From: Candidatus Endomicrobium embiratermitis
GTDB taxonomy: Bacteria; Elusimicrobiota; Endomicrobiia; Endomicrobiales; Endomicrobiaceae
DNA: 64,000 bases
Reading direction: 5' to 3'
Assembly: GCA_009781315.1 (NCBI GenBank)
Contig: WQYI01000003.1
Location: 124,001-188,000 of the forward strand
Shown here piece by piece: positions 18,474-63,811 of this stretch. Made by a program: the position numbers and the translations under genes. Below the pieces are notes generated by a model, which was not told where the DNA came from, ran no database searches, and saw only the letters and a list, made by a program, of their open reading frames with translations. Position 1 is the stretch's first letter. Every line of letters starts with the position of its first letter.

Positions 18474-18513
18474 TATTTTTCCAATTATAGCCAAAAGGTG
18501 TTTTTGCGAAGTA

Positions 18514-34976: not shown

Positions 34977-36206
34977 TTACTCATATCTTTTTACTATAAG
35001 CGAGCAGTTTGTGCCGCCGAGGGCAAAACTGTTTTTCATAAGAGTGTTTACTTTTAAATCCTGATTTGCGGTAAGATGTTTTACGCCCGAACATTCAGGG
35101 TCAATATTTTCCAAATTAAGCGTTGAAGCAATTTTATTTCTTTCCATCATATCAAGCATGGCTATAAGTTCAAGGCTGCCGCTTGCCGCCATTGTGTGTC
35201 CGATATGTCCTTTTAAACTGTTGACGGAAATTTTTTCCCCGAAAACGGAAGCTATCGCTTTGCTCTCTTCTATGTCTCCGGCAAGCGTACTTGTGGCATG
35301 GGCGTTAACAAAATCTATGTCAGAGGGGCAAAGCCCCGCATTATCCAAAGCCTTTTGCATACATTCGCTTATGCATTCGCGCGACGGATGAGATATGCTT
35401 TTAGTTTCCGTGTTTGTGCCGAAACCTATGATTTCGCCGTAAATTTTAGCATCGCGTTTAAGAGCGCTTTCCAGAGATTCTACAAAAAACATTCCGCATC
35501 CTTCGGAACACACTATGCCTCCCCTGTCTTTATCAAAAGGCCGGGACGCTTTTTCGGGATCAGCGTTAAAACCGCTGCTTGCGGCATTCATTATCGAAAA
35601 ACACGCGGTCATTATAGGATGATATTCATCCGTACCGCCGCATAAAGCGCTGTCGACAAATCCGGCAGACACGGCAAGATACGCAAGACCGGTATTTATT
35701 AAACCCGTAGCGCAAGCTGTACAAGTGCCAAACCCCGGGCCTTTAATATCAAACGCCTGAGCGACATTTGCCAGCGGCGAATGATTCATAACCTGAAAAA
35801 CCACGGTTGTTTTTACGGTATTCAATTCTTTCTTTTTATATTTATCGGCAAAATTTACCCATGTATCCATGCTGCTTATTGTGGAACCCAAAAATAAAGA
35901 GGTTTTTTCAGGGACGGTTTCATAACCCGCGCAATTAACCGCTTCTTTTATCGCGCCGTATGCAAAAAGAGACATTTTAGACATAGACCGTCTGAAATGG
36001 CGCGGAATATATGAAAAATCTATTTCAGGAACCGTTGAAGAAACATGGCTCATAATGTCGGGGTCTTCGGCAAGCTCGGCGTTAAATTTCACGCTGCTTT
36101 TTCCCGCAAGCATATTGTCTGCCAAAAGTTTCGCGCCCGCGCCGTAGGGAGAAACCGCGCCGACACCGGTTATAACTACTCTTCTTTTTTTGAAATTATC
36201 CGGCAC
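34977..36206 (-). CDS. Beta-ketoacyl-ACP synthase (KAS II/FabF-like) of the polyene cluster
   Basis: It condenses an acyl thioester with malonyl-ACP. The 409-residue product keeps the full triad: C165 in TACATG, H303 in NAHATST and K332/H337 in LKGHIGHTM. GTG at 36206 is the start, with GGAGG 4 bases upstream; the overlapping ATG is out of frame. It is the last gene of a tightly packed minus-strand run (ACP, acyltransferase, two periplasmic proteins, dehydratase, LolA-like carrier, ketosynthase). That context points to a dedicated polyene or lipid pathway rather than housekeeping FabF, although the sequence alone fits both. Confidence 0.88.
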   Translation of the reverse strand: MPDNFKKRRVVITGVGAVSPYGAGAKLLADNMLAGKSSVKFNAELAEDPDIMSHVSSTVPEIDFSYIPRHFRRSMSKMSLFAYGAIKEAVNCAGYETVPEKTSLFLGSTISSMDTWVNFADKYKKKELNTVKTTVVFQVMNHSPLANVAQAFDIKGPGFGTCTACATGLINTGLAYLAVSAGFVDSALCGGTDEYHPIMTACFSIMNAASSGFNADPEKASRPFDKDRGGIVCSEGCGMFFVESLESALKRDAKIYGEIIGFGTNTETKSISHPSRECISECMQKALDNAGLCPSDIDFVNAHATSTLAGDIEESKAIASVFGEKISVNSLKGHIGHTMAASGSLELIAMLDMMERNKIASTLNLENIDPECSGVKHLTANQDLKVNTLMKNSFALGGTNCSLIVKRYE

Positions 36207-36234: not shown

Positions 36235-36849
36235 TTATTTAACGTCTATATCAAAAACGTTTTGCGGCAAAGATTCGTTAATTTTTGTATTAAAAAATGA
36301 AATCAGACTTTTATCGCCGGTTTTGCTTATTATTTCCACTTGTTCTACCGCAGCAATGTCTTTGCGGAAAAATATGTTTATTTTTGAAATCATTTGTTTT
36401 TTTGAATCTCCTAAAGGGAACAAGGTTATCCCGTCTTCGAAATCTTCGATTTTATACGATTTTGAAATTTTAGTTTTATCCATGGATATAAAAGCGTAAA
36501 GCTGTAAAACCACGGCTTTGGCGGCCGGATTTGAACTTATGTCTTTTATTTCTTTTTTGCCGTCTTTTTCTTCCCATGAAAAAATTTTACCGCCGTTTAT
36601 GAGAAACCCGCGGTTAAAAGGCGACAAATATTCCCATTTTAAAGAATCCGGTTTTTGAAAATAAAAACGCCCGGCGCTTATAAACGGCTTGTCCGCTATC
36701 GAAACATATTCTTTCATTTCAAATGAGCTTTCTACGGTTTGGACATTCGCGAATTCGGAAAACTTTTGATCTATTGTCTGCTGGGCAGACACTACGGAAA
36801 CAAAAGCAACCATTAACATCTTTATAATAAAAATTTTTGTTTTTTTCAT
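36235..36849 (-). CDS. LolA-like periplasmic lipoprotein/lipid carrier
   Basis: The 204-residue product has a signal peptide (MKKTKIFIIKMLMVAFVSVVSA) and the LolA-type pattern: an early Q.F.EF helix, F...K...(I/F)..G.F.F.KPD.L.WEYLSPF, FLINGGKIFSWEEKDGKKEI, then PLG-containing strands. LolA relatives in aryl-polyene clusters are thought to ferry the product or a precursor across the periplasm. The gene overlaps the upstream dehydratase by 4 bases (ATGA), so the two are coupled. Confidence 0.8.
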   Translation of the reverse strand: MKKTKIFIIKMLMVAFVSVVSAQQTIDQKFSEFANVQTVESSFEMKEYVSIADKPFISAGRFYFQKPDSLKWEYLSPFNRGFLINGGKIFSWEEKDGKKEIKDISSNPAAKAVVLQLYAFISMDKTKISKSYKIEDFEDGITLFPLGDSKKQMISKINIFFRKDIAAVEQVEIISKTGDKSLISFFNTKINESLPQNVFDIDVK

Positions 36850-37271
36850 TCGGTATCCGCAAACTCAAATATTCTGAACTCTCCGGCGGCGATTTTTTTA
36901 TCGTTTACAAAAAGTTCCGTTTTTATTATATGAAGATGCGCTATTTCATCTGTTTTTTCAATAACGCATATCACCTTGTCTCCAGATTTAGTATCGGCAA
37001 AAAATTCAAAACTTTTAACGCTTGCCAGAAAACCTTTCGAAGAATCAAGGTTTTTTCTCATCTTTTGGAATTTGTCTACAGCGGCAAAAGACTGGGCAGC
37101 GATTTCTATTAACGCGGCTCTTGAAAAAATTCCGTTGGTTCCGATAAATATATTGCCGTCTCTTATCTCAAACGAAGTTTTGCCTTTATCGGCGCTTTCT
37201 TCTAAAACTTCGTCCACAAGAAGCATAGGCGGCTTGTGGAACATATTTTCTTTTACGTTAAACTCCGTCAT
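36846..37271 (-). CDS. 3-Hydroxyacyl-ACP dehydratase, hotdog fold (aryl-polyene type)
   Basis: The 141-residue product starts at ATG 37271 (MTEFNVKENMFHKPPMLLVD), in ATGA overlap with the preceding gene; a longer frame would run 60 bases into it. The hotdog signature is HKPPMLLVDEVLE with His, followed by ALIEIAAQSFAAV (the acid in E..AQ) and KGFLASVKSFEFFA. This order is typical of the FabA/FabZ-like dehydratases of aryl-polyene clusters. It would remove water from each 3-hydroxyacyl intermediate to create the conjugated double bonds. A second, shorter hotdog protein is encoded at 56173. Confidence 0.8.
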   Translation of the reverse strand: MTEFNVKENMFHKPPMLLVDEVLEESADKGKTSFEIRDGNIFIGTNGIFSRAALIEIAAQSFAAVDKFQKMRKNLDSSKGFLASVKSFEFFADTKSGDKVICVIEKTDEIAHLHIIKTELFVNDKKIAAGEFRIFEFADTE

Positions 37272-37663
37272 TTTCCCGTTTTTGAAAAATCTATATTTTG
37301 TCGTATGGCTTTGTTTAAATTCCCGACCCATTGGTTATATTTCGAATGTATAAGATTTTTTTTGTCGTTATAATTCATGTTCGAGCTGTCTTTGTATTCT
37401 ATAGAATAACCGCTTTTATCATACGCAATTTTTACGGTTACCGAATGCCCTCTCAAGTTTAACACGGCATCTATTTGATTGTCGCCTTTTTCAGCTGGAA
37501 CCCAGCCTTTTTCCTGACAGCCCGCAATAATTGCTTTTTTGACGTCCGCGTCGCTGCTTAAAGACAAAGGAACTTCTACTTTTAAAGGATTAACCATAGA
37601 CGCTGCAAAAACAACCGAAGCAAAAAGCGCCGTCAAAAACGTTGATGCGATAATTTTTTTCAT
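37268..37663 (-). CDS. Small periplasmic protein of unknown function, paralogue 1
   Basis: The 131-residue product has a signal peptide (MKKIIASTFLTALFASVVFA) and no known domain that I recognise. It shares with the next-upstream gene the pattern: a helix with (V/A)KKAI...C..(K/G)W, then VTVKIAYDKSGYSIEYKDSS and a terminal helix NQWVGNLNKAI. Its position between dehydratase and acyltransferase genes suggests a role in handling or exporting the cluster product. It is 2 bases from its paralogue and overlaps the dehydratase by 4 bases. Confidence 0.65.
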   Translation of the reverse strand: MKKIIASTFLTALFASVVFAASMVNPLKVEVPLSLSSDADVKKAIIAGCQEKGWVPAEKGDNQIDAVLNLRGHSVTVKIAYDKSGYSIEYKDSSNMNYNDKKNLIHSKYNQWVGNLNKAIRQNIDFSKTGK

Positions 37664-37665
37664 TT

Positions 37666-38049
37666 TTATCCCCTTAAATTCTTTAAAATACTGGTATTTA
37701 ACTCGGCAATCTTATTGTCATATGTCGAATTTATAACGGCGTTATCGTCTTCGTCGTCCAAATCCAAATTGCTTTCCCTGTATTCTATAACGTAATTCTG
37801 TTTCGTGTAAGTTATTTTAGCGGTCAAAATACATTCATTTGCGTCAACAGTCGCAAATATTACATTATGTCCGTTAAGTTTTACGGCTTTCCAGTTGTCT
37901 CCGGAACAAGCTTTATTAATCGCGTCTTCAACGGACTCGGCGCTTGGAACCGATACTTTCTCTCTTATAACGCCGGGTTTTTTAAGCGCTGCGAAAAGCC
38001 CTGATGCGCAAAAAGTCAAAACAAACGACAAAACTAAAATTTTCTTCAT
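37666..38049 (-). CDS. Small periplasmic protein of unknown function, paralogue 2
   Basis: The 127-residue product has a signal peptide (MKKILVLSFVLTFCASGLFA). Helix SVEDAINKACSGDNWKAVKL, strands ECILTAKITYTKQNYVIEYRES and the terminal helix NKIAELNTSILKN align with the neighbouring protein encoded at 37268-37663, so the two arose by tandem duplication. It overlaps the acyltransferase gene end by 4 bases (ATGA). Function unknown. Confidence 0.65.
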   Translation of the reverse strand: MKKILVLSFVLTFCASGLFAALKKPGVIREKVSVPSAESVEDAINKACSGDNWKAVKLNGHNVIFATVDANECILTAKITYTKQNYVIEYRESNLDLDDEDDNAVINSTYDNKIAELNTSILKNLRG

Positions 38050-38765
38050 CTTTCCTCCAGCTTTTGTACTACCATGTTTTTAACGTGCTTTGCCATATTA
38101 TGAGCGCCAAGCTCGCCTTGAAATTTATCGGGATAAACGGTTTCAAGCTGAATGTATTCCACGGGATTGTATTTCGGGCAGTACGATCCCGGCGGCAACA
38201 TTTCGGCAAGACCTTTTATTACAAACGGAACAACCGGACAATTTATTCTGATCGCGGCTTCAAAAGCAAGCGTCCGAAACCTTCCTGTAACCTTGCTTCT
38301 TGTGCCTTCCGGAAAAACCGCGACGTTAAGCCCCCGTTCGATTTTTACGCGCGCATCTTCAATAATTTCTTCCGCCGTTTTGCCTTCGGAATTTATATAT
38401 CCCGCTTTTTCAATAAATTTTCCGTAGAAAATTATTTTAAACGGCCAGCCTTTGGCTATACAGACAAGATTTTTAATGCCGAAATCAAAAAACACGAAAG
38501 TGTCATACGTGCACGGATGGTTTGCCACAAGTATCGAAGCTTTGTCCGGCATTTTTCCTTTGACGACTTTTTTACTAAACCCCGAAGCGAAAAATACCGC
38601 GAACTGAACGACTTTTCCCTGAAAATAAAGAAAATTTCTCAATGCGTTTTCTTTATATCCGGTAAAATAAAAATACGGCACCGCGAAAATGCCCGAAATA
38701 AAAAGCCATGTCCACGCCGCCGCCGCAAAAGGAGCTCCGTATAGTTTTTTTATAAAATCAGGCAT
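38046..38765 (-). CDS. PlsC-like 1-acylglycerol-phosphate acyltransferase
   Basis: The 239-residue product has one or two N-terminal membrane segments, the catalytic motif NHPCTYD (H..xD as HX4D) near residue 80 and the FPEGTRS substrate motif near residue 150, in normal order for the family. It would esterify an acyl or aryl-polyene chain to a glycerol or sugar phosphate. It overlaps the ACP gene by 8 bases, which supports direct use of that ACP's cargo. Confidence 0.9.
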   Translation of the reverse strand: MPDFIKKLYGAPFAAAAWTWLFISGIFAVPYFYFTGYKENALRNFLYFQGKVVQFAVFFASGFSKKVVKGKMPDKASILVANHPCTYDTFVFFDFGIKNLVCIAKGWPFKIIFYGKFIEKAGYINSEGKTAEEIIEDARVKIERGLNVAVFPEGTRSKVTGRFRTLAFEAAIRINCPVVPFVIKGLAEMLPPGSYCPKYNPVEYIQLETVYPDKFQGELGAHNMAKHVKNMVVQKLEER

Positions 38766-47193: not shown

Positions 47194-47214
47194 AAGCAAA
47201 GTTGAGAGTGAAAA

Positions 47215-49239: not shown

Positions 49240-49264
49240 CATTACCGTATCATGAGGTTTAGTT

Positions 49265-50444: not shown

Positions 50445-51095
50445 ATGAAGTTTTACGCTGTTTTGGCGTTCTTTTTCTTTTTTTGCTCTGCAATTGTTTC
50501 AGCTGAAAATTATTCTTTTCCGGCAGAATCGGTTGAAAGCACGATTATAACGGCCAACGCGGGGAGAATCAACATAACAACTTCTTACAAAGCAAAAACA
50601 ATTTCAGTATCTTTCAAACAGGGAGTTCCGCCGTCTACAAAAAGAAACATACGAATCAATAACAGAAAACAATTGGAAATATATCTGGACGGAGACGATT
50701 TTGACGAAAATTCCACAGTCGATATTGTTTTACCTAAAGAACACAGACTGCAAATAAGTTCTCTTACGGCGGATATAAAAATTTCAAATTTATCCGGAAG
50801 CATCAGCCTGGATGCTTCGGCTGGAACAGTCAATATTAAAAATTTTAACGGAAATCTCGGTATAAGCTCCGTGTCCGCGCAAATTGACGCCGAGGGCGAA
50901 TTTAAAATGATTGATCTTGAAAGCGTTTCCGCTTTTATCTGGTTCTCTTTGAAAAAATTACCGCCCGACCACGATTATACTGTTTCCGGCGCGGGCAATA
51001 TCAGATTTATTCTGGGAAAAGGCGTTAACGAAGATAATTTAAATATAAAGAAAAACGAATTTTACGGAAATCTGGAGATAACGGATGGAAGGTAA
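50445..51095 (+). CDS. Exported beta-helix-like protein (DUF4097-like)
   Basis: The 216-residue product has a signal peptide (MKFYAVLAFFFFFCSAIVSA). The remainder reads as short repeated beta-strands ending in N, D or S turns (TITTANAGRINIT-like, ISSLTADIKISNLSGSISL, AGTVNIKNFNGNLGIS), the pattern of DUF4097/putative adhesin folds. Function unknown. The stop overlaps the FabG gene by 11 bases, so it is part of the operon. GGGGG precedes the ATG. Confidence 0.6.
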   Translation: MKFYAVLAFFFFFCSAIVSAENYSFPAESVESTIITANAGRINITTSYKAKTISVSFKQGVPPSTKRNIRINNRKQLEIYLDGDDFDENSTVDIVLPKEHRLQISSLTADIKISNLSGSISLDASAGTVNIKNFNGNLGISSVSAQIDAEGEFKMIDLESVSAFIWFSLKKLPPDHDYTVSGAGNIRFILGKGVNEDNLNIKKNEFYGNLEITDGR

Positions 51096-51810
51096 AATAG
51101 CTTTAGTCACCGGAGCAAGCAAGGGAATAGGAGCGGAAATCGCCAGAACTTTGGCAAGAGACGGTTTTGACATATGGCTTAATTACCGCTCAAACGACAC
51201 TGAAGCTCAAAAAGTCAAACAAGAGATTGAGAACTTAGGCAGGGGCTGCCTGCTTTTAAAGTTTGACGTTGCCGATTATAAAAATACCGAAGCAATATTA
51301 TCCCCGCTTTTGGAAACGCAAACTCCGTTTGCCGTAGTAAACAATGCCGGGTTCCGCAAAGATACCCTTTTAATGTGGATGAAAGAAAGCGAATGGAAAG
51401 ACGTGGTTTCCGTAACTTTAGACGGATTTTTTAATGTTACAAAACAAGTTTTGCCGTTTATGATAAGGGCGCGCGAAGGAAGAATTATAAACATATCGTC
51501 CGCCGCGGCTCATTTCGGCGTTCCCGGACAAACTAATTATTCGGCCGCGAAAGCCGGGCTTATAGGCGCGACAAAATCTTTGGCAATGGAAGTCGCAAAA
51601 AGAAATATTCTCGTAAACGCTGTTTCACCGGGTTTTATAGGCACGGAAATACTTGAAGGCTTGCCTATGGAACAAATCCTTAAAACCATACCGCTGGGAA
51701 AGACAGGCGAACCAAAAGACGTCGCGGAAATAGTTTCATTTTTAGCTTCGGATAAAGCAGGTTATATTACGGGCAAAGTTTTTCAAATTGACGGCGGAAT
51801 CGGCGCTTAA
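51085..51810 (+). CDS. fabG: 3-Ketoacyl-ACP reductase FabG-like, cluster ketoreductase 2
   Basis: The 241-residue SDR is close to FabG in length and motifs: TGASKGIGAEIARTLA, VNNAGF, catalytic Ser in NISSAAAHFG, and Tyr/Lys in YSAAKAG, followed by NAVSPGFIGTEI. It would reduce 3-ketoacyl-ACP. It overlaps the upstream gene by 11 bases. It may serve the polyene pathway or general fatty-acid synthesis. Confidence 0.9.
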   Translation: MEGKIALVTGASKGIGAEIARTLARDGFDIWLNYRSNDTEAQKVKQEIENLGRGCLLLKFDVADYKNTEAILSPLLETQTPFAVVNNAGFRKDTLLMWMKESEWKDVVSVTLDGFFNVTKQVLPFMIRAREGRIINISSAAAHFGVPGQTNYSAAKAGLIGATKSLAMEVAKRNILVNAVSPGFIGTEILEGLPMEQILKTIPLGKTGEPKDVAEIVSFLASDKAGYITGKVFQIDGGIGA

Positions 51811-51838: not shown

Positions 51839-53287
51839 ATGAAATACGACGCGGTTGTTATAGGCAGCGGGATATCAGGATTGACTTCTGCTTTGCTTAT
51901 CGCCCAAAAAGGTAAAAAAGTCGCGATTGCAGAGCAGGCGCCTCATATAGCTCCTTTAATAGCCGGATTTGACAGAAATATCCGTATTTTTGAAAAAATG
52001 CACAAGGTGCATTTTGAAAGCGGGTTTCATTACGGAGCTGGGCTGGGCGAAAACGAAATATGCGGATTTCTGTTTAAAAAACTCGGGATCTCTGTCCCGG
52101 CAGTACCGTGCGATAAAGACAATTGCGACGAGATACACCTTTTAAAAAGCGGTAAAGTTTTTAAAACGCCCGTAGGAAAGCAAAGTTTTCAAAAAAGACT
52201 TGAAGAAACTTTTCCCGCTGAAAAAAGCGGCATAGCCGCTTTTTTGGACGATGTTCAAAAAACCATAGACGAAATGCCTTTTTTGAATCTCCATAAAAGA
52301 GACTATTCTTACAAAGAACTTTTAATATGGCCGGACGACGATAGAACTTTGCAGGGAGTTTTAGACAAGCATTTTAAAACATCCGAAATAAAAGTATTGC
52401 TTTCTTTTCCGACAATTTTATACGGAACGCCTCCTTCAAAAACCCCGTTTTCTTTATACTGCAGCTGCTCAGGCCTTATGTTTGAAAGCATTTGGAAAAT
52501 AAAAGGCGGCGCGGGTGACCTTGTCACCATTTATAGAAAGGCTCTTAAGGAAAACAATATAGAAATCTTTACAAATAAAAAAGCCGTAAAAATAGAGTTT
52601 GACGAAAAAACTTCAGACAAAAAAATAATTTTTGCCGACAATTCGGAAATCATCTGCGAAACATGCGTTTCCTCGGTTCACCCGAAAGAGTTTGTAAAAA
52701 TCGCCCCCGAAGGAACATACCGCAAAAATCACATCGAGAGAATAAATTCTCTTGAAGAAACGCCCGGATTTTTTATTTTGTACGGCGTTTTGGAAAACGG
52801 AAAACGCTACGCAAATACAAACACGTCTTTTCTGGCAAGCGACAATTTTAAAAACGTTTATCCCGAAGGCAAAGAAAAAATGATGTATGTAAATTTTTCG
52901 GATACCGATCCTCAATGCGTATGCGCCGTTGTTTTTGAAAACGGCGATGAAAAAGAATGGGAGATTCCCGAAAAAGATTACATCGAAAAGAAAAATAAAA
53001 CGGTTGCGGAAATAAAAAAACGGCTAAAAGAGCTTTATCCAGAAGTTGCGGACAATGTTAATTTCTGCGACGCGGCTACTCCTAAAACTTTTAAAAAATA
53101 CGTAAACTATTACAGCGGTTACGGCATAATGCATAAAGCGAACAGCGTCGCGGTTTTGCCCGCGACAAAAATCCCGGGATTGTTTTTAACCGGACAGGCG
53201 GTTGTGGCTCCCGGCCTTATGGGCGCTTTGCTTTCGTCTTTTCTAACTGATAAGATAATGAGCTCGGCAAATAGCAAGAATATATAA
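51839..53287 (+). CDS. Phytoene-desaturase/retinol-saturase-like FAD oxidoreductase
   Basis: The 482-residue flavoprotein starts with the dinucleotide motif VIGSGISGLTSALLIAQ and ends with a second FAD motif (PGLFLTGQAVVAPGLMGALL). A central substrate region (SLYCSCSGLMFESIWKIKGGAG) is typical of the CrtI/all-trans-retinol saturase superfamily. It would add or remove double bonds or isomerise a polyene. Such enzymes occur in carotenoid clusters and, as I recall, in ladderane-associated clusters, but are not a standard part of aryl-polyene clusters. Ribosome site weak. Confidence 0.8.
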   Translation: MKYDAVVIGSGISGLTSALLIAQKGKKVAIAEQAPHIAPLIAGFDRNIRIFEKMHKVHFESGFHYGAGLGENEICGFLFKKLGISVPAVPCDKDNCDEIHLLKSGKVFKTPVGKQSFQKRLEETFPAEKSGIAAFLDDVQKTIDEMPFLNLHKRDYSYKELLIWPDDDRTLQGVLDKHFKTSEIKVLLSFPTILYGTPPSKTPFSLYCSCSGLMFESIWKIKGGAGDLVTIYRKALKENNIEIFTNKKAVKIEFDEKTSDKKIIFADNSEIICETCVSSVHPKEFVKIAPEGTYRKNHIERINSLEETPGFFILYGVLENGKRYANTNTSFLASDNFKNVYPEGKEKMMYVNFSDTDPQCVCAVVFENGDEKEWEIPEKDYIEKKNKTVAEIKKRLKELYPEVADNVNFCDAATPKTFKKYVNYYSGYGIMHKANSVAVLPATKIPGLFLTGQAVVAPGLMGALLSSFLTDKIMSSANSKNI

Positions 53288-53449: not shown

Positions 53450-56176
53450 ATGATGATATACCCTTTTATTTTCAAACATAAAAAAGTTTACATTGCCGCG
53501 ATATGCGTTATGTTCGCGGTTTTTGCGTTTTTATTCTCAAAAATTAAATTTAAAGAAGATATTTCCGAAATGCTTCCTGACAGCTTGGGAACGGAGATCA
53601 AACTTTTCCAAAACTCTCCGCTTTCAAATAAACTTTTTGTCGTAATAGAAAGCAACGACAACGAAGTTTCGTTAAACGCGGCTCAGACGGTTTCCGAGGC
53701 GCTGGAAAGCAATCAAGAACTTAACCTTAGCGCTCCCAAAGCGGACAGAGATTTTTTACTGTCGTTTTATCATTATGTCCCTAACATCTGGAACGAAAAT
53801 ATTCAAAACAGAGTCGGGCTGATTCTTGATAAAAAAAACATAGCTTCAAATATCGGAGAACGCCTGCAGCACGCCTTTTCTCCCGAAGGAATATTCTTCA
53901 GGGATTTTATCATAAACGATCCTCTCGGACTGCTTCCCGCCTTTGCGCAAGAACTTAAAAATCTCGATATTACAAACTCTTTCGAAACGGATAACGGTTT
54001 TATGTCAACCGACAACGGCAAAAAAATACTGCTTATTTTCGATTACCCTAAAAATTCGCTTGATTTGGGTTTTTCAAGAAAATTAAAATCCGTCTTTGAC
54101 GAAATAAAACTTTCTCTGCCCGAAGGCGTCAACGCGTTTTTTATGGGCGCGCCGAGATACACGCTTGAAAATAACGCGGTCATAATACGGGACATAAAAA
54201 ATATTTCAATAATATCTTTCGCGCTGATGGCAATTTTATTTTTTGTTTTTTTAAGGGACAAAAAAGCCATTTTGATTTATCTTGTGCCTCCCGCGGTTGT
54301 AGCTTTCGCGGCTGTCATAACAAGTTTTATTTTTAACGGAATATCCGGAATTACCATAGGTTTCGGCGCGGTGCTGATGGGCCTTTCGATAGACTATTGC
54401 GTGTACGCTTATTTTGCTTTAAAAGCGTCCGAAGAAAAAGACAGATTTAATTCAATGAAAAAAATATTCAAATCTGTCGCGGTAAGCGCTTTAACGTCAA
54501 TTCTCACTTTTTCGCTTTTGTGGTTTTCCGATATAGGGGTATTCAGGCAGGTAGCTCTTTTTTGCGCCGCGGGTTTGACGGCGGCTTTCTTAATAGCCTT
54601 TTTTATCGCCCCTGTAATTTTTGACTGCGCGAACGAAGTCCCGAATACGCACAACGATGCGATCCGGATAAGCAAACTAAACCCGCCCGCTGCCGTATTA
54701 ATTTTATCGGCTGTATTTATAGCCGCGATAATCAGCTTTAACTACGTTAAATTCGACGTTTCTTTGGATTCTCTGAACACTGTTTCGCAAAATTTTGAAA
54801 AAGACAAAAAGATATTTGAACAAATTACCGGAAACGCGTATAATAATAATGAGTTTTTATTTGTTTTCGGAAGCACAAAAGAGGAAGCGCTTAAAAATAA
54901 CGAAATTATTTCACGCGAAAACAAAGATATTTTAAAATTGTCCGGACTTTTCCCAAGCGAAAAAACAAAAGAGCAAAACCTTATAATGTGGAAAAAGTTT
55001 TGGACGCCGGCCAAAATTGCCCAAGTAAAAGAAGAAATAGAAAAAGCCTCAAAAAAATATAATATTAAGCCCGGCGTTTTTAATGATTTCTACGGCTTTT
55101 TAGAAACGGGTAAACATAAAGAAAGCAAAGCTTTCGAAGCTTTTAGTTTAGATATATTTTATAATCCCGTTATAGAGATAGACGGGGAATATGCTTTTAC
55201 GAATATTTTGCCCCAAAACGGCAAAATTTTAAATTCACAAAACATAAAAACTTTGGTAATATCCAATAAAACGCTTCAGGAAAAAATAACAGCCGAAGTT
55301 TTCTCAAGTTTTTATATAATAACAGGCGTTCTTTTATTATGTTCTTTTGTCGTGCTTGCGGTTTTATTAAAAGACGTTAAACTCGCGTTTTTAAGCCTTA
55401 CTCCGGTATTGTGCGGCGCATGCGTTTTTTTTATCACGGCCGCGGTTTTAGGAATAGAGGTAAATTTGTTCGGTCTTTTCGCAATACCGCTTCTTTTGGG
55501 ACTGGGCATAGATTACGCGGTATTTATGATTTACAAAATAAAAGGAGACTCAAAACTTCATCCGATAAAAGCCGTAGTCATAGCGGCCATGTCGACGCTT
55601 ATAGGCTTCGGTTCGCTTATGGCGGCAAGTCATAAAGTTTTGTTTATAATAGGTTTTATGGTTTTTACAGGAATTTTAACGGCAATACTTGTAAGTATTT
55701 TTATAGTTCCCGCGTTTTTAAAAAAACACGAAAACGACGGTACGTTAAAAATTTTACTTTTAACCGTAATCTTCGCCGTATCGTTTTCCGCATGCGCTGC
55801 AACAAACAAGAGAATAAATTATAACGCGCAGGAACCGTCCGCTCTAAGCATGGCGAAAAACAAAACGTCGATGTTTTACGGCTCATACATGTATGACTTG
55901 CAATTTAAAGCAATAACCGTTGAAGAAAACGACGGCGTAAGAGTAGTGATTATGAGCGATTTAGGCGTTAAGCTTCAGGATATGAAAATAAAAAAAGACG
56001 GCGAGACAGACGTTTATTTTTATATTTCGTATATGCCGAAATCCGTAATCGAGCAATTTGCGGATTTTTTTAAAGAATTGTTTATGAGCGATAAAAAAGA
56101 AAATATAAAAATAATAGGCGGAAGAATTTATTATTTTAATCAAGACGAGCCCGTGTTATGGGTAATAAAAATATGA
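53450..56176 (+). CDS. MMPL/RND exporter fused to a DUF3261-like lipoprotein domain
   Basis: The 908-residue product has two copies of the RND/MMPL unit: one TM, a periplasmic domain and a five-helix bundle, with SIDYCVYAYFALKAS near 320 and GIDYAVFMIYKIKGD near 690. At about 762 the transporter ends and a hydrophobic segment with a lipobox-like FSAC (Cys at 782) begins. A ~125-residue domain follows (SMFYGSYMYDLQFKAITVE, YFYISYMP, IIGGRIYYFNQDEPVLWVI), resembling DUF3261 lipoproteins of aryl-polyene clusters. There is no start codon at the junction, so the lipoprotein is expressed as an extension of the exporter. The exporter likely moves the polyene to the outer membrane. Confidence 0.75.
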   Translation: MMIYPFIFKHKKVYIAAICVMFAVFAFLFSKIKFKEDISEMLPDSLGTEIKLFQNSPLSNKLFVVIESNDNEVSLNAAQTVSEALESNQELNLSAPKADRDFLLSFYHYVPNIWNENIQNRVGLILDKKNIASNIGERLQHAFSPEGIFFRDFIINDPLGLLPAFAQELKNLDITNSFETDNGFMSTDNGKKILLIFDYPKNSLDLGFSRKLKSVFDEIKLSLPEGVNAFFMGAPRYTLENNAVIIRDIKNISIISFALMAILFFVFLRDKKAILIYLVPPAVVAFAAVITSFIFNGISGITIGFGAVLMGLSIDYCVYAYFALKASEEKDRFNSMKKIFKSVAVSALTSILTFSLLWFSDIGVFRQVALFCAAGLTAAFLIAFFIAPVIFDCANEVPNTHNDAIRISKLNPPAAVLILSAVFIAAIISFNYVKFDVSLDSLNTVSQNFEKDKKIFEQITGNAYNNNEFLFVFGSTKEEALKNNEIISRENKDILKLSGLFPSEKTKEQNLIMWKKFWTPAKIAQVKEEIEKASKKYNIKPGVFNDFYGFLETGKHKESKAFEAFSLDIFYNPVIEIDGEYAFTNILPQNGKILNSQNIKTLVISNKTLQEKITAEVFSSFYIITGVLLLCSFVVLAVLLKDVKLAFLSLTPVLCGACVFFITAAVLGIEVNLFGLFAIPLLLGLGIDYAVFMIYKIKGDSKLHPIKAVVIAAMSTLIGFGSLMAASHKVLFIIGFMVFTGILTAILVSIFIVPAFLKKHENDGTLKILLLTVIFAVSFSACAATNKRINYNAQEPSALSMAKNKTSMFYGSYMYDLQFKAITVEENDGVRVVIMSDLGVKLQDMKIKKDGETDVYFYISYMPKSVIEQFADFFKELFMSDKKENIKIIGGRIYYFNQDEPVLWVIKI

Positions 56177-56511
56177 TAAACGCGGAAACCGATATATCAG
56201 CGTCTTTTAAAAACCAAGACGGCAATATTTTTACGTTTTTTATAGACAAAAATTTTACGGCTTTTCAGGGACATTTTCCCGAAAACCCATTGCTTCCCGG
56301 GATTGTCCATATAGAAATCGCTTTATTTTGCTTAAAAAAACTTTTAAATAAAAACGACGCTGCCCTTAAAGAAGTCAAGAAAGCCAAATTCATAAAACCG
56401 ATTTTACCCGATACCGCGATTTGCGCTGTTATAACCGAAAACGGGGAATATTTTAATATTACTATTAAAGACGATAAAGAAACGTATTCGCAAATTTCCA
56501 TCGCGGTATGA
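56173..56511 (+). CDS. Short hotdog dehydratase, ApeI/FabZ-like
   Basis: The 112-residue product starts at the ATG overlapping the exporter stop (ATGA); an ATG 15 bases upstream is an alternative. FQGHFPENPLLPGIVHIE is the FabZ-type catalytic motif with His, and KKAKFIKPI continues the hotdog strand. It is shorter than FabZ and resembles the small dehydratases of aryl-polyene clusters. It would act with the dehydratase encoded at 36846. Confidence 0.75.
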   Translation: MINAETDISASFKNQDGNIFTFFIDKNFTAFQGHFPENPLLPGIVHIEIALFCLKKLLNKNDAALKEVKKAKFIKPILPDTAICAVITENGEYFNITIKDDKETYSQISIAV

Positions 56512-56521: not shown

Positions 56522-56983
56522 ATGATAAAGAAATCTTATTTTAAAACAAATCCGGACGACCCTAAACCTTTAAGCTGCGTAAGCGAATTCATAGTACGCT
56601 TTAACGAGCTTGATCCGATGAGCATCGTATGGCACGGGAATTACGCCGTATATTTTGAAGAAGGGCGTCTGGCTTTAGGAAGAAAATTCGGCATAGGTTA
56701 TATGGATTTTTACAATAAAGGCGTTACCATACCTTTAAAACAAATTCATTTTGATTATTTCAAACCTCTGGAATTTGCAAAAACCTATAAAATAGAAACT
56801 CTTCTTTACTGGAACGAAGCGGCGAGACTCGATTTTGAGTTCCGCATTTATAACCAGGGCAACGATATTATGACTTCAGGTTACAGTATTCAGCTTATGA
56901 TAGATAAAGATAAAGGCGTCCTGGTGAACAAACCCGATTTTTACGAAGATATATGCAAAAAATGGCGTGACGGGAAGTTTTAA
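56522..56983 (+). CDS. 4HBT-type acyl-CoA/ACP thioesterase (YbgC-like)
   Basis: The 153-residue hotdog protein shows the YbgC-type catalytic run NELDPMSIVWHGNYAVYFEEGR, with Asp in the loop and the conserved HGNY, and the strand KQIHFDYFKPLEF. It would release the chain from ACP or edit misloaded ACP. The start has AAAGGAAAA upstream and lies 10 bases after the dehydratase stop. Confidence 0.85.
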   Translation: MIKKSYFKTNPDDPKPLSCVSEFIVRFNELDPMSIVWHGNYAVYFEEGRLALGRKFGIGYMDFYNKGVTIPLKQIHFDYFKPLEFAKTYKIETLLYWNEAARLDFEFRIYNQGNDIMTSGYSIQLMIDKDKGVLVNKPDFYEDICKKWRDGKF

Positions 56984-56991: not shown

Positions 56992-58320
56992 ATGGCAAAA
57001 ATTCTCCTCATTTCGTCTAACCTTTACCAATATCCTTATCCGGTTTATCCTTCTGGAATGTCCGCAATAAGCGCGGCGTTAAAACGCGGCGGACATCAAA
57101 CTTTTCAATACGATATGCTTTTCCCGAAACAATCCCTTGAAAAAGTAATCGAAGATTTCAATCCTGATATTGTCGGAATTTCCGTACGCAATATAGACAA
57201 TGAAGATTCTCTTTCCATTGACAATCATTGGTCTGGAGATGCCGTTAGAAGTATTGTTTCTACTATAAAAAATGCCAAAGGCACCCCGGTTTTTTTGGGC
57301 GGCGCGGGTTTTTCGGTTGCAGGCGAGGAATTTTTAAATTATACGAAAGCCGATTTCGGAATTATAGGTGCAGGCGAGATTTCCACGGCAAAGCTTGTAA
57401 ATGACATTTTGTCCGGAAAAGCAAAAAATAAAATTTACCGTTCTAAAGGTATAACGTCCGATATCCGGTACATTGTTCCGGACATCGACGCGGACTTGCT
57501 TAAAAAATACGCCGACGCCGGAGGACTTCTCGGCGTAATTTCAAAACGCGGCTGCGCGTATTCGTGCGGCTATTGTTCTTACCCTTTAATCGACGGGGGC
57601 TTAGCCTCTTTTGATATAAAAACAATCGTTCGTTATATAAAAATGCTGGAAACCGAATACGGCGTAAAAGAAATTTTTTTCACGGATTCGGTTTTTAACG
57701 ACTCTTGCGGATTTGCGAAAGCTTTGTGCGAAGAAATGATTAAACAAAAAACGCAAATAAAATTTGCGGCATACTTTAATCCCGCGGGAACTTCTTTTGA
57801 CGAATTAAAATTGTATAAAGAAGCGGGATTGTTCGCGGTTGAACTCGGCACGGACGCTTCCACCGACACGACATTAAAAGCCTTAAATAAGCCTTTTAAT
57901 TTTAAAGAAGTCGAAGACTTCCAAAACATGTGTGACAGTCTGCAAATCCCATGCGCTCACTTTATTATTTTCGGCGGACCCGGAGAAACTATGCAGACAG
58001 TCCGCGAAGGCCTTGAAAACATAAAAAAACTCAAAAACGGCGTAGTCATGGTTTTTTGCAGAATAAGAATACATTACGGCACGGACATTTATAAACAGGC
58101 TTTGGCAGAAGGGAAAATAACAAAAGAAACAAGTTTATTAAAACCTTATTATTACTTTTCAGACAAAATCGATATTTCAGAAATGAATAAAATGATAGAA
58201 CAATCCTTCAAAGGCAACAGAAAAAGAATTTTTCCTCCCGAAAAAGGCGAAGAAATGATGCGGACTATAAGAAAATTCGGATGCAAAGGCTTGCTCTGGG
58301 ACACCTTAGTAAAGGCATAG
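56992..58320 (+). CDS. B12-binding-domain radical SAM protein of lipid/polyene clusters
   Basis: The 442-residue product has an N-terminal Rossmann-like cobalamin-binding region (~1-150: VYPSGMSAISAALKRGGH and IVGISVRNIDNE). I see no DxHxxG motif, so any cobalamin would bind base-on or with other ligands. The radical SAM core follows, with C188, C192 and C195 in RGCAYSCGYCSYPLID. Relatives sit in lipid clusters, including ladderane-associated ones, and in other type II clusters. Class B methyltransfer at an unactivated carbon is one possibility. It follows the thioesterase gene by 8 bases, and its product would act on the growing or finished chain. Confidence 0.75.
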   Translation: MAKILLISSNLYQYPYPVYPSGMSAISAALKRGGHQTFQYDMLFPKQSLEKVIEDFNPDIVGISVRNIDNEDSLSIDNHWSGDAVRSIVSTIKNAKGTPVFLGGAGFSVAGEEFLNYTKADFGIIGAGEISTAKLVNDILSGKAKNKIYRSKGITSDIRYIVPDIDADLLKKYADAGGLLGVISKRGCAYSCGYCSYPLIDGGLASFDIKTIVRYIKMLETEYGVKEIFFTDSVFNDSCGFAKALCEEMIKQKTQIKFAAYFNPAGTSFDELKLYKEAGLFAVELGTDASTDTTLKALNKPFNFKEVEDFQNMCDSLQIPCAHFIIFGGPGETMQTVREGLENIKKLKNGVVMVFCRIRIHYGTDIYKQALAEGKITKETSLLKPYYYFSDKIDISEMNKMIEQSFKGNRKRIFPPEKGEEMMRTIRKFGCKGLLWDTLVKA

Positions 58321-58328
58321 TTAAATTA

Positions 58329-59489
58329 ATGAGCAATTATAAACCTTTAATCGTTATTCCTCTTTATAATCACGCGGCGACTGTCCGTAAAGTCGCCGAG
58401 GAAGCTTTGCTGCTTTATAAAGACGTTTTGGTTATCGACGACGGAAGCACGGACAAAGGGATTGAAAAGTTAAAAGGCCTTCATTTAAACACGCTTCATT
58501 TTGACAAAAATAAAGGCAAAGGCGCGGCTATTATTTCCGCGGCATACTATGCTAAAGCAAACGGTTTTACCCATATTGTAACAATTGACGCGGACGGGCA
58601 GCATTTTCCTTCCGATATTCCCAAACTTCTTGAATATTCAAAACAACACGAACATTCGATTGTTATAGGCAAAAGAAAATTTGAAAATTCGGCGGCTCCG
58701 GCAGCTTCTAAATTCGGCCGTAAATTTTCGGGCTTTTGGGCAAAAGTCCAGACAGGCAAAACCATAATAGACATGCAAAGCGGTTTCAGAGTTTATCCTG
58801 TGGAAGTTTTCGGCAAATATAAATTTTTCAGCAGACGGTTCGCTTTTGAAATCGAAGTGATAATAAAAGCGTTATGGGCGGGTCTTTCGGTTGAAGAAGT
58901 CGACATAGAAGTTTATTATCCCCAAAACCGCAACGAGCGCGTCTCGCATTTTAAACTTATAAAAGATAATTTCCGAATCGGAATTTTAAATACTTACCTT
59001 ACTATGCGTTCTATGTTACCGGTGCCGCACAAAAAATATGTCAAAAACGATAAAGGAGAGCTGGTCTCTTTAAATCCTTTCAAGGTTGTAGCCGAGCAAT
59101 TAAAGAGCGATAACAATCCATTTCATCTGGGCTGTTCGGCCGCATGGGGATCTTTTTGGGGCGCGCTCGCGCTGCCCGGAGTAAGAACTTTTATTTTAAT
59201 GGTCGGCGTAGGCTGGTTTAACTTAAACAGAGCCGTTGCTTTCAGCGTTGATAAACTCGCTATGCCTCCTTTTATACCTTTTGTATGCATACAGGTCGGT
59301 TATTTTCTTAGACACGGACATTTTCTTACCGAAGTAAGCTGGCAGGTTTTAGGCGTGCAATTTTTACAAAGAGTATGGGAATGGGTTTTAGGTTCTCTGA
59401 TAGTAGCCCCTGTTTTCGCGTTGATAGTAGGAGGCACTGTTTACGTTATAGGAAAAATTATGAGAATCGGAGCTAAAAAACTGCTTTAA
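58329..59489 (+). CDS. Family 2 glycosyltransferase with C-terminal DUF2062 membrane domain
   Basis: The 386-residue product starts at ATG 58329 (MSNYKPLIVIPLYNHAAT), 9 bases after the radical SAM stop; an earlier in-frame codon lies inside that gene. VIDDGSTDKG and TIDADGQHFPSD are the GT2 nucleotide-sugar and DxD motifs. From ~255 the chain is hydrophobic (PFHLGCSAAWGSFWGALALP, RTFILMVGVGWFNLNRAV), matching DUF2062. In known aryl-polyene clusters a similar glycosyltransferase is fused to an LpxL-like acyltransferase; here that partner is a separate gene at 59625. Confidence 0.85.
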   Translation: MSNYKPLIVIPLYNHAATVRKVAEEALLLYKDVLVIDDGSTDKGIEKLKGLHLNTLHFDKNKGKGAAIISAAYYAKANGFTHIVTIDADGQHFPSDIPKLLEYSKQHEHSIVIGKRKFENSAAPAASKFGRKFSGFWAKVQTGKTIIDMQSGFRVYPVEVFGKYKFFSRRFAFEIEVIIKALWAGLSVEEVDIEVYYPQNRNERVSHFKLIKDNFRIGILNTYLTMRSMLPVPHKKYVKNDKGELVSLNPFKVVAEQLKSDNNPFHLGCSAAWGSFWGALALPGVRTFILMVGVGWFNLNRAVAFSVDKLAMPPFIPFVCIQVGYFLRHGHFLTEVSWQVLGVQFLQRVWEWVLGSLIVAPVFALIVGGTVYVIGKIMRIGAKKLL

Positions 59490-59624: not shown

Positions 59625-60515
59625 GTGTCTCAAAACTGGACGGGTAAAAGTTTAGGCAGCTCGTTTTTTCAAAACCTTTTAGGTTTTTTTATAAAATACG
59701 GCGGAAAATACATAGCGTATTTTATTTTGTATTTTGTCGTAATCTTTTACACTTTGCTGCCGTCCGTAAGACGTAAAGCTTCTTTTTATTTAAAGCGGCG
59801 TTTCCCCGAAAGCAGCGCGTTAGAGCTGTTTTTTCACACTTATAAACTTAACCTTACTTTCGGAAAAATTTTGACCGACAGGGCAATTTTGGGAATAAGG
59901 GGCGAGAGCGAAGTAGTTTCGTCCGAAGCGGATAAACAGCTTTGCAGGGACTTGCTTGCTAAGGGCAAAGGGCTTATTATATTAACCGCGCATTGCGGGT
60001 GCTGGCAGGCGGCAATGTCGTCTTTTGATTTTTTACCCGAAGAAAAATACGTGCTTTATCACAAAAGCCGCGAAGACGTAGACAAACATGCTCATGAATT
60101 GTCCGGCAAAAAGTCTCCCGTCAAGTTTATAGACCCGGCAAGTTTTGGGGGCGGGTTGATAGAAACTCTTGCGGTTTTACAAAAAAAGGCTATACTTTGC
60201 GCAATGGCCGACAGAACTTTCGGCGATAAAGTTAATTCCGTCGAGGTCGATTTTCTCTGCGGAAAAATAGACGCGCCGTTTGGCATTTACAGAATTGCCG
60301 CCGCGCAGGAAACTCCGATAGCCGTAATTTTTTTCCCTTATAAAGGCAGCGGAAAAATAGATTCCGTTATTGCCGATATTTTTTACGTGGAAGACAAAGG
60401 CGGACGCCTTGTGAACAATTATTTAAAAGAAGTCGAGAAATTTGCAAAGTCTCTGGAAAAATTCACGCGGGAATATCCGTATCAGTTCTTCAATTATTAC
60501 AATATGTGGAAATGA
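59625..60515 (+). CDS. LpxL/HtrB-like acyltransferase with HX4Q motif
   Basis: The 296-residue product has an N-terminal membrane segment (~18-45), then the family's catalytic region LILTAHCGCWQAAMSSFDF. Most LpxL proteins have HX4(D/E) (as in HFGNWE); here the acidic position is Gln. I recall similar variants in aryl-polyene-associated relatives, so activity may persist through another residue. The conserved GTR-like region is ADRTFGDKVNS. GTG at 59625 has AAGGAG 6 bases upstream. It would acylate the glycosylated polyene or glycolipid. Confidence 0.75.
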   Translation: MSQNWTGKSLGSSFFQNLLGFFIKYGGKYIAYFILYFVVIFYTLLPSVRRKASFYLKRRFPESSALELFFHTYKLNLTFGKILTDRAILGIRGESEVVSSEADKQLCRDLLAKGKGLIILTAHCGCWQAAMSSFDFLPEEKYVLYHKSREDVDKHAHELSGKKSPVKFIDPASFGGGLIETLAVLQKKAILCAMADRTFGDKVNSVEVDFLCGKIDAPFGIYRIAAAQETPIAVIFFPYKGSGKIDSVIADIFYVEDKGGRLVNNYLKEVEKFAKSLEKFTREYPYQFFNYYNMWK

Positions 60516-60569: not shown

Positions 60570-60587
60570 TTTAATAAGGGAGTGCCA

Positions 60588-60845
60588 ATGATATCGACAT
60601 CTTTAGACGACGTTAAAAAAGTATTAAGCGAAAATCTTGATATGGAAGGAATTGATTTAAATTCTTTAAAAGAAGACAGCCCGCTCTTTTCAGGGTTGGG
60701 GCTAGACAGTTTGGACGCCATAGAACTTGTTATAATTTTACGTAAAAATTACGACATCGTAATAGAAAACATGGATGAAGGAAGAAACGTTTTCCAGACG
60801 CTGGAGACTTTAAGAAAATATATCGAAGCTAAAAGAAAGAAATGA
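60588..60845 (+). CDS. Acyl carrier protein 2 of the cluster
   Basis: The 85-residue product starts at ATG 60588, with AAGGGAG about 6 bases upstream; the GTG at 60582 lies in that site. The phosphopantetheine Ser is in FSGLGLDSLDAIELVIIL. It is followed after 22 bases by the third ketosynthase. Two distinct ACPs, one in each block, suggest separate loading of starter and extender. Confidence 0.93.
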   Translation: MISTSLDDVKKVLSENLDMEGIDLNSLKEDSPLFSGLGLDSLDAIELVIILRKNYDIVIENMDEGRNVFQTLETLRKYIEAKRKK

Positions 60846-60867: not shown

Positions 60868-62061
60868 ATGAAAACAACAATTACCGGATTCGGATGCGTT
60901 TGTTCTTTAGGGAATAATGTTTCCGAAATTAAACAAAATTTATTCAAACCTGTTTCCGAAATTTCATTTTTAGACAGGTTTGAAAGTTCTTTTGCCAAGG
61001 ATTATCCTGTTTTTCAGGTTTCCCGAAAAATTTTATCCCAGAAAAACGAATCTGAAAGTTACGGTTTTTTGTTTTTAAAAACCGCTTTAAACGAAGCGCT
61101 TAAAAACGCGAATTTAAAAGCTAAAGATTTAAAAGACGCAAAAGTCGGCGTTGTTATAGGAACGTCGGTGGACGCGTCTTTTAATTGTTTTGATTTTTAT
61201 AAAGAATGGCGCAATGAGGAATATCCGCCGCTTGACCCTTTAAACAAATATATTCAATATTCCCCGGCTAAAGAAGTTTTAAAGCATCTGGAGCTTGAAG
61301 GGATTTCGCAAACCGTTGTCACGGCCTGCGCCTCCGGAACGGACGCAATAGGAATCGGCGCCCAGTGGATTGAAAATTCGATATGCGATGTCGTTATCGC
61401 AGGCGGCGCCGACGAGTTAAACCTTATTCCCTTTACCGGATTTATCAAACTTATGATAGCGAGCAAAGAACGCTGTAAGCCTTTTGACGAGAACAGAAAC
61501 GGAATTAATCTCGGCGAAGGAGCGGGCGTTTTTATAATGGAGTCGGAACAATTCGCGGTTGAGCGAAACGCGAAAAAAATAGGTTTGGTTTTAGGTTACG
61601 GCAATGCCTGCGACGCTTATCACCAGACAAGCCCGGAACCTAACGGCAGAGGAATAAAAAAAGCTCTTGAGAACGCCTTAAACCAGAGCGGGTTAAAACC
61701 CGGCGACATTTCTTTTATAAACGCCCACGCAACCGGAACTTTAGACAACGACTCCGCGGAATCCCTGGCCCTTAACGCAATATTAAAAGGCGTTCCAGTA
61801 ACGGCGACAAAAAGCAAAACCGGCCATGCTTTGGGCGCGGCCGGAGCAATCGAAGCGTGCTTAACTTTAATATGTTTAAACGAACAGAAAATTCCCGCTG
61901 TTGAAAATTTCAAAACAGCCGACGAGAATTTAGAACTTGTCCCAGTTTCAAAAAATACGGAAATAAAAAACGCTAAAGCCGCCGTTTCGAATTCGCTGGG
62001 TTTCGGCGGATGCAATGCCGCTTTAGTTCTGGGCAGCCGGGAGAAGACTGCGAATGAATAA
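60868..62061 (+). CDS. Beta-ketoacyl-ACP synthase 3 of the cluster
   Basis: The 397-residue product keeps C154 (TACASGTDAIG), H287 (AHATGT) and K315/H320 (TKSKTGHALG). It overlaps by 8 bases the gene for the ketosynthase-like/ligase fusion, whose N-terminal half lacks the active Cys. By analogy with type II polyketide KS/chain-length-factor pairs the two could form a heterodimer. This is inference from overlap and missing residues. Confidence 0.85.
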   Translation: MKTTITGFGCVCSLGNNVSEIKQNLFKPVSEISFLDRFESSFAKDYPVFQVSRKILSQKNESESYGFLFLKTALNEALKNANLKAKDLKDAKVGVVIGTSVDASFNCFDFYKEWRNEEYPPLDPLNKYIQYSPAKEVLKHLELEGISQTVVTACASGTDAIGIGAQWIENSICDVVIAGGADELNLIPFTGFIKLMIASKERCKPFDENRNGINLGEGAGVFIMESEQFAVERNAKKIGLVLGYGNACDAYHQTSPEPNGRGIKKALENALNQSGLKPGDISFINAHATGTLDNDSAESLALNAILKGVPVTATKSKTGHALGAAGAIEACLTLICLNEQKIPAVENFKTADENLELVPVSKNTEIKNAKAAVSNSLGFGGCNAALVLGSREKTANE

Positions 62062-63811
62062 AATATTTATCAAAAGCTCCGCTTACGCCGACGGCGTGAA
62101 AGGATTAAACCAGTTTTTCGACCAGATGCGGCTTCGCAGAATCGACGCTCTTTCGAAGATGGCGCTGTACGCCGCGGCAAAAACTCTTTACGAAATAGGC
62201 ATAGATTTGAACAAAGAAAAAAGCGATATCGGTCTGATTATCGCTACCGGCAGAGGCCCGGTAAAACAAACCTGCGATTTTATGAACAGCATTATAGACG
62301 ACGGAGATACTTTAGCGTCGCCTCTCGCGTTTTCACAGTCCGTGCACAATTCTATTGAAACTTCAATAACAATCCTTTTAAATTTACGCGGCCCGTGCCT
62401 GACGATAAGCCAAGGCGGCGATTCTTTTGCTTCGGCGGTCGTTACGGCTAAAAGCTGGCTTCTTTCGGAAAAATGCAAACACGTCCTTTTAGGCGCGGCG
62501 GACGAAGAACATCCCGTAATATCGAAAGAATATGAAAACAAAATCCTTAAAAAAAAGTGCGCGGCTTTTTTTCTTTTGACTCTTGAGGAAACCTCAAACG
62601 AACTTGTCGCCGAAGATATAAAATCCGACGATTTTAACCCTTCTCTTTACCCTTTCGAACTTGCGCGCAAAACCTGCGTGTTTATTACAAAAGACGCAAC
62701 GCAGCGCATACTTGAAGATTTTGTCAAAGCCGCTCTTGCCGAGAAAAAGAAAGATATCATGTCGGTGTTTGCGAATAAAAACATTCCCGAGCTTATGCAA
62801 AATTTAGATATCGACGAAAAACAAAATATTTTCGACGGAATAACAACTTTATTCTCTATAGACAACGATAAAGTCGCAGATACCGGAACTATCAATGAAA
62901 CATGTTTTGAGTCCGCGCGAAAACATAACAAAATCAATTTTTCTACTTCCGGAAGTACGGGCGATCCGCAAAACTGCGTGCATACAAAAGATATGGTCAA
63001 AGAAGAAGTCGAAGGCGTCGCTTTTCTGTTTAAAAATATTGAAAGAGTCATAAACACGGTGCTGTCGCATCATTCATATGGATTTATTTTTGCGTTGCAA
63101 ATGCCGAGATGTCTGGATCTGCCGGTTCTGTCTTACCCTCCGGTTCCGGTTTTGGAATGGACCAAAACGCTTAAAGAAGGCGATTTGCTTGTGACGTTTC
63201 CGTTATTTTTAAAATATCTTACGAAATTCGATTTTAAATTTCCGCAAGGCGTCACTATTCTGGTTTCAACCGCTCCGTGTCCGGACGAATTGATGGAAAA
63301 TCTTTACCGTAACGGCGCGCAAAGAGTCATAGAGATTTACGGCGCTTCGGAAGCCGGCGCTATAGGTTTTCGCGAAAATCCCGGCGCTCCGTTCTTTCTC
63401 CTTCCTTTCTGGGATTATAAAGAGGAAGACGGGCTTGTAAAAAGTATTTCCAGAAAAACTACAAGCCTACGAAAAAATCTCCCTGACATAGCAAAAGTAA
63501 AAGGCGAGAGGCTTTTCTCGGTCATTGAACGCATAGACAACGCGGTTCAGGTCGCTGGCGTCAATGTTTTTCCTTCAAAAGTCGAAAAAACATTGAAACA
63601 GCATCCTATGGTAAAAGACGCCGTCGTGCGTTTAGGAAAGGAAAGATTAAAAGCTTTTATAGTGCTTCAAAAAGGCGTCAATGAAAAAAACGCCAAAACA
63701 ATCCTGTACAATTATATGGAAACTATTTTTACCGTGCACGAAATACCAAAAAATTTAACTTTCGGAAACAAACTTCCTTTGACGGCTTTCGGAAAAAAAG
63801 CAAACTGGTGA
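62054..63811 (+). CDS. Fusion of an inactive ketosynthase-like domain to an AMP-ligase (aryl/acyl:ACP ligase)
   Basis: The 585-residue product joins two parts. Residues ~1-185 match the N-terminal half of a ketosynthase (LRRIDALSKMALYAA, SPLAFSQSVHNSIETS, GPCLTISQGGDSFASA), where the active-site Cys position is Gly122. This is the Ketoacyl-synt_2 type seen as chain-length-factor-like proteins. After a ~100-residue linker, residues ~290-585 form an adenylate-forming ligase: FSTSGSTGDPQ, EIYGASEAGAIGFR, VAGVNVFPSKVEKTL and a terminal Lys in LPLTAFGKKANW. The usual P-loop Lys is Gln306, as in GDPQ. It probably activates the starter acid (4-hydroxybenzoate-like) and hands it to the KS/ACP. It ends the cluster. 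Confidence 0.78.
   Translation: MNKIFIKSSAYADGVKGLNQFFDQMRLRRIDALSKMALYAAAKTLYEIGIDLNKEKSDIGLIIATGRGPVKQTCDFMNSIIDDGDTLASPLAFSQSVHNSIETSITILLNLRGPCLTISQGGDSFASAVVTAKSWLLSEKCKHVLLGAADEEHPVISKEYENKILKKKCAAFFLLTLEETSNELVAEDIKSDDFNPSLYPFELARKTCVFITKDATQRILEDFVKAALAEKKKDIMSVFANKNIPELMQNLDIDEKQNIFDGITTLFSIDNDKVADTGTINETCFESARKHNKINFSTSGSTGDPQNCVHTKDMVKEEVEGVAFLFKNIERVINTVLSHHSYGFIFALQMPRCLDLPVLSYPPVPVLEWTKTLKEGDLLVTFPLFLKYLTKFDFKFPQGVTILVSTAPCPDELMENLYRNGAQRVIEIYGASEAGAIGFRENPGAPFFLLPFWDYKEEDGLVKSISRKTTSLRKNLPDIAKVKGERLFSVIERIDNAVQVAGVNVFPSKVEKTLKQHPMVKDAVVRLGKERLKAFIVLQKGVNEKNAKTILYNYMETIFTVHEIPKNLTFGNKLPLTAFGKKANW

Follow-up and report, generated by a model that had tools for sequence, protein, structure and literature searches.

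A half-size chain-length factor fused to a short AMP-forming ligase in aryl-polyene-like gene clusters of Elusimicrobiota

The DNA analysed here, a stretch of 64,000 nucleotides of Candidatus Endomicrobium embiratermitis (contig WQYI01000003.1, positions 124,001 to 188,000; hereafter the window, in whose numbering all coordinates are given), contains an intact open reading frame at 62054-63811 that specifies a half-size ketosynthase domain and an AMP-forming ligase in one chain of 585 amino acids. This fusion represents a conserved variation on a synthase type that is already known, and it probably serves an aryl-polyene-type type II synthase in two roles, as its chain-length factor (CLF) subunit and as the ligase that loads the starter. 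Its domain composition, the lack of a catalytic Cys in the half-CLF, the retained ligase residues, the overlapping ketosynthase (KS) gene and the surrounding Ape-like gene set were observed directly, and are described below.

Domain architecture and catalytic residues

The fusion protein, its two parts and the KS encoded immediately upstream are as follows.

62054..63811, + strand: fusion protein, half-size CLF plus AMP-forming ligase, 585 aa (domain searches, structure model, relatives)
62054..62593, + strand: half-CLF (ApeC-like) domain, aa 1-180 (PF13723, ApeC profile match, alignment with E. coli ApeC)
62666..63808, + strand: short ANL ligase, aa 205-585 (PF00501, PF13193, TIGR02372, conserved residues, structure matches)
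60868..62061, + strand: catalytic ketosynthase, ApeO-like, presumed partner (PRK09185, 290 bits; ApeO by BLASTP, E 3e-54; matches to 6qsp_A and 7f28_B)

An earlier note, made from the sequence alone, had described a CLF-like half joined to a full AMP-ligase, and Pfam indeed places Ketoacyl-synt_2 (PF13723) on aa 21-177 (66.5 bits; cut-off 25), AMP-binding (PF00501) on aa 298-439 (29.9 bits, exactly at the cut-off) and AMP-binding_C (PF13193) on aa 509-581 (25.8 bits; cut-off 24.5). The identity of the second part thus stands, but "full" does not, as the ligase is a short form of approximately 380 residues compared to the longer full-length ANL enzymes. The TIGR02372 4-coumarate-CoA ligase model of NCBIfam matches aa 289-582 with 203.6 bits, short of the 334.7 bits of its equivalog cut-off, and on this score the ligase is a relative rather than a member of that family. 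The AlphaFold2 model of the whole fusion (pLDDT 85.2, pTM 0.80) has benzoate-CoA ligase, MenE and 4-chlorobenzoyl-CoA ligase as its top Foldseek matches, and by family and predicted fold the ligase is aromatic-acid-ligase-like. The half-CLF matches the ApeC structure 7f28_A at the profile level (E 5.7e-7) and has the SVHN motif in common with ApeC, while the linker between the two domains is short and varies in length and sequence among relatives.

The position of the KS Cys is occupied by Gly122, as the earlier note had read it, and the equivalents of this residue are Gly, Asp, Glu, Ala and others, with Cys found in none of the fused or split relatives. Glu433, Asp478, Arg493, Asp495, Gly502 and Lys581 of the ligase are conserved in 25/25 fused proteins. 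The altered P-loop to which attention had been drawn is present in the window protein (Gln306 in place of Lys), but it is no special feature: at this position 18 of the 25 fused proteins have Lys, four Val, two Gln and one Leu. As this position varies among separate, unfused ligases also, Gln306 was rejected as a signature of the fusion architecture.

The upstream KS retains Cys154, His287 and His320, and its gene overlaps that of the fusion by 8 bases (ATGAATAA), an arrangement paralleled in many relatives by KS stop/CLF start overlaps of 4 or 8 bases. The proposal that the partner KS resides in the overlapping upstream gene is supported. Less well supported is the suggestion of the earlier note that starter activation would be placed at the KS/CLF heterodimer, the AlphaFold2 model of a natural KS-CLF-ligase triple fusion (pLDDT 58, pTM 0.40) being of too low a quality to show docking.

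The surrounding gene set

The window contains counterparts of E. coli CFT073 ApeO, R, Q, M, L, K, J, I, E/F and D, which supports the aryl-polyene setting that the earlier note had assumed.

60582..60845, + strand: acyl carrier protein (ACP), ApeE/F-like (PF00550; PRK09184; ApeE match)
59625..60515, + strand: lipid A-type acyltransferase, matching the C-terminal part of ApeJ (PF03279 below cut-off; E. coli comparison)
58281..59489, + strand: glycosyltransferase family 2, matching the N-terminal part of ApeJ (Pfam; E. coli comparison)
56992..58320, + strand: B12-binding radical SAM protein, TIGR04072, a ladderane-associated family (524 bits, cut-off 360)
56522..56983, + strand: thioesterase, ApeK-like (Pfam; E. 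coli comparison)
56158..56511, + strand: dehydratase, ApeI-like (PF22818; E. coli comparison)
53450..56176, + strand: MMPL/RND exporter, ApeM-like (Pfam; E. coli comparison)
51839..53287, + strand: CrtI/CrtD-like FAD oxidoreductase (Pfam; CrtD model 89.9 bits, below cut-off)
51085..51810, + strand: ketoreductase, ApeQ-like (42% identity to ApeQ)
38046..38765, - strand: acyltransferase, ApeD-like (PF01553; E. coli comparison)
36846..37331, - strand: small protein, homologues of which precede LolA/MMPL in relatives (conserved in L030, L037, L045, L047, L048, L050, L093 and L132)
36235..36849, - strand: LolA-like carrier, ApeL-like (domain search; E. coli comparison)
34977..36206, - strand: second ketosynthase, ApeR-like (35% identity)
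17943..18494, - strand: chorismate lyase (Rv2949c-like), presumed source of 4-hydroxybenzoate (PF01947, 110 bits; PF04345, 28 bits)

Features sought as marks of an aryl-polyene cluster and found here are the ACP, ketoreductase, ApeI-type dehydratase, thioesterase, MMPL and LolA genes, an ApeO-type KS accompanied by a half-size ApeC-type CLF, and a source of an aromatic starter in the form of the chorismate lyase; the head-group methyltransferase ApeB, likewise sought, is absent from the window genome. E. coli ApeJ corresponds to two genes of the window, one for the glycosyltransferase and one for the acyltransferase. Homologues of the minus-strand genes at 34977-37331 lie just 5′ of the MMPL gene in contiguous clusters of several relatives, and for this reason both operons of the window probably serve one pathway. 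The small protein at 36846-37331 had no match in Pfam and no significant match upon comparison with ApeP; its position, that of ApeP, makes a second dehydratase subunit possible. Upstream of the lipid cluster, at 45579-50419, genes for BioB, a short-chain reductase, a KS, a DUF5672 protein and a BioF-like enzyme stand in a row, and these may belong either to biotin synthesis or to the lipid pathway.

The chorismate lyase, whose activity forms 4-hydroxybenzoate, is encoded 44 kb from the fusion and adjoins none of the relatives' clusters. It was found in seven of 341 genomes of the phylum, all seven of which bear the fusion, and within the family in 7/17 fusion-bearing members as compared to 0/19 others (hypergeometric P 0.0023, kinship ignored). 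Homologues of ApeB, the likely head-group methyltransferase of the E. coli aryl polyene (PMC8253772), are located directly 3′ of the fusion in several relatives, with approximately 310 bits to E. coli ApeB, and occur in 12/17 fusion-bearing family members against 0/19 others (P 5e-6, kinship ignored). UbiA is absent from the window genome, so that ubiquinone synthesis offers no evident outlet for 4-hydroxybenzoate there. An aromatic ammonia lyase was rejected as the starter source, as the gene is absent and none was present among the flanking ORFs of relatives that were checked. An aromatic starter is favoured since the chorismate lyase and ApeB both track the fusion, and since UbiA is lacking.

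Distribution and origin of the fusion

Genome contigs were searched with an alignment of the family, a single-protein query having given no matches, and the fusion was found in 22 of 341 genomes of the phylum Elusimicrobiota and in 17 of the 36 genomes of the same family, the nearest named relative being Candidatus Endomicrobium macrotermitis (74% identity). The search for the same fusion elsewhere, proposed in the earlier note, was therefore positive, and it also bears on whether the ORF is the product of a frameshift, of assembly or of a misjoin. The window does derive from a draft contig, but the same full-length fusion recurs in 22 genomes, is 44-74% identical within the family and is present in G002, a genome consisting of a single contig, rendering an artefact exceedingly improbable.

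The half-CLF and the ligase are specified by separate genes in Elusimicrobiaceae, Desulfovibrionales, Desulfuromonadales and Candidatus Adiutrix, where they follow the KS in the same order and are mostly adjacent. The order KS-CLF-ligase is represented by split genes in several phyla, by two-way fusions in Elusimicrobiota and by a three-way fusion in L042, a Verrucomicrobiales contig on which one 1036-aa ORF (L042:135-3245) comprises KS, half-CLF and ligase. In the ligase tree all fused forms constitute one clade of 25 rows (support 98/97), with the split forms of Elusimicrobiaceae next to it. This clade takes in Verrucomicrobiota contigs and one Spirochaetota MAG contig, which leaves room for transfer or mis-binning; the contigs in question (L093, Spirochaetota; L042, L044 and L049, Verrucomicrobiales) have isolate codes resembling those of Endomicrobia MAGs, and either transfer between gut bacteria or mis-binning is possible for their fused forms. 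Extra ligase copies adjoin an ACP gene in the Elusimicrobiaceae L111, L114, L115 and L116, with no half-CLF beside them on the short stretch covered.

Discussion

In the synthase that we propose, the half-CLF would pair with the KS at 60868, as ApeC does with ApeO, and the ligase would adenylate 4-hydroxybenzoate supplied by the chorismate lyase and load it onto the ACP at 60582. The KS/CLF, together with the ketoreductase and dehydratase, would then extend this starter to a polyene, and attachment of the latter to a membrane lipid would fall to the acyltransferases, the glycosyltransferase and the exporter. As a result of the fusion, the ligase and the KS/CLF would stay in one complex at a 1:1 ratio, and the loaded ACP may have a shorter distance to travel. 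The idea that ligase and KS/CLF act jointly is well motivated, and a direct hand-off of the starter would be plausible.

Several observations run counter to the aryl-polyene reading: ladderane-type genes are also present in the cluster, the identity of the ligase to E. coli ApeH is only approximately 21% in the part common to both, ApeH lies on a very long branch in the ligase tree, the window genome has no ApeB, and 10/17 fusion-bearing family members have no chorismate lyase. The cluster might instead produce a ladderane-like or polyunsaturated non-aryl lipid, with the ligase activating an aliphatic acid or re-activating the finished chain and the half-CLF serving elongation. Of the features typical of ladderane-type clusters, the window has the TIGR04072 radical SAM protein, at 524 bits, and the phytoene-desaturase-like oxidoreductase at 51839-53287, the latter with a CrtD score below cut-off; anammox-type clusters contain radical SAM, phytoene-desaturase-like, glycosyltransferase and phenylacetyl-CoA-ligase-like genes (PMC2649909), and clusters of this type, with product unknown, have been reported from many non-anammox phyla (PMC9902471). 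We nevertheless judge such a product unlikely, as TIGR04072 is absent from most fusion-bearing relatives, ApeB and the chorismate lyase track the fusion and the ligase resembles aromatic-acid ligases. There is a more substantial chance, albeit still below even, that the fusion is neutral and merely ensures that two independently acting subunits are made together, in keeping with the persistence of split forms with the same gene order in sister lineages and with a linker that is short and variable; its retention across a diverse, well-supported clade of 25 rows and the existence of a separate three-way fusion argue to the contrary.

Among 60 relatives, TIGR04072 scored over cut-off only in G000, G002 and G032, all of which bear the fusion and lack ApeB; three fusion-bearing genomes thus have TIGR04072, twelve have ApeB, none has both and two have neither (P 0.015 for exclusion, kinship ignored). 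This complementary distribution suggests, as a hypothesis, that one may replace the other. A bolder scheme, which we advance tentatively and regard as rather doubtful as a whole, combines this with a tethered loading module, in which the ligase would charge the ACP while bound to the KS-CLF and pass the starter straight to the KS Cys, TIGR04072 performing the head-group modification in the absence of ApeB. If correct, the aryl polyene made by lineages without ApeB that have TIGR04072 would bear a novel head group, and the pattern in any case provides a testable idea for a family whose function is undemonstrated.

The clusters that carry the fusion resemble the clusters responsible for yellow aryl-polyene pigments of membranes and point to aryl-polyene-like lipids in strictly anaerobic Elusimicrobiota of the termite gut and rumen, for which a word search of a 2024 Endomicrobia genome paper retrieved no mention of polyketides or polyenes (PMC11257099). 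As E. proavitum is cultured and an apparent carrier, the product can be sought directly. On comparative grounds, the fusion also speaks for physical cooperation between the starter ligase of an aryl-polyene-type synthase and the KS-CLF pair, the two being separate proteins in the systems found in the literature.

No description of a CLF-ligase fusion was encountered in the literature searched, which covered few subscription papers such that an earlier description is possible, and nothing in it presented the architecture as already common. As the earlier note had stated, the activities are on separate genes in known aryl-polyene clusters, ApeC and ApeH being separate in E. coli CFT073. The half-size ApeC has been solved in complex with ApeO, and ApeO-ApeC condenses (PMC8358021); like the ApeC of X. 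doucetiae (6QSP) and A. baumannii (7F28), the domain described here is a half-size CLF that has a single thiolase-like fold, lacks the catalytic Cys and is encoded alongside an ApeO-type KS, but ApeC is a separate protein and not the N-terminal domain of a ligase. ApeH charges the ACP with 4-hydroxybenzoate in the absence of a CoA intermediate (PMC8253772) and, like the window ligase, is an ANL ligase of an Ape-type cluster (HMM match 54 bits), although the latter is shorter, approximately 21% identical, closer to TIGR02372 and fused to the CLF. The ladderane-type FASII clusters of anammox bacteria and Desulfotalea (PMC2649909) similarly combine a radical SAM protein, a CrtI/phytoene-desaturase-like protein, a glycosyltransferase, a ligase and a membrane transporter, whereas the window has an Ape-type set (ApeI-, ApeQ- and ApeR-like) and most fusion-bearing relatives lack the radical SAM protein; ladderane lipids themselves are known only from anammox bacteria (PMC9902471). 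In A. baumannii ApeI is fused to ApeH (PMC8041823), so that there, too, a starter ligase is joined to a single subunit of a pathway enzyme that acts as a heterodimer, but its partner is a C-terminal dehydratase subunit as opposed to an N-terminal CLF. Half-size CLFs and the ApeH-ApeI fusion having been published already, the CLF-ligase fusion is a new variant.
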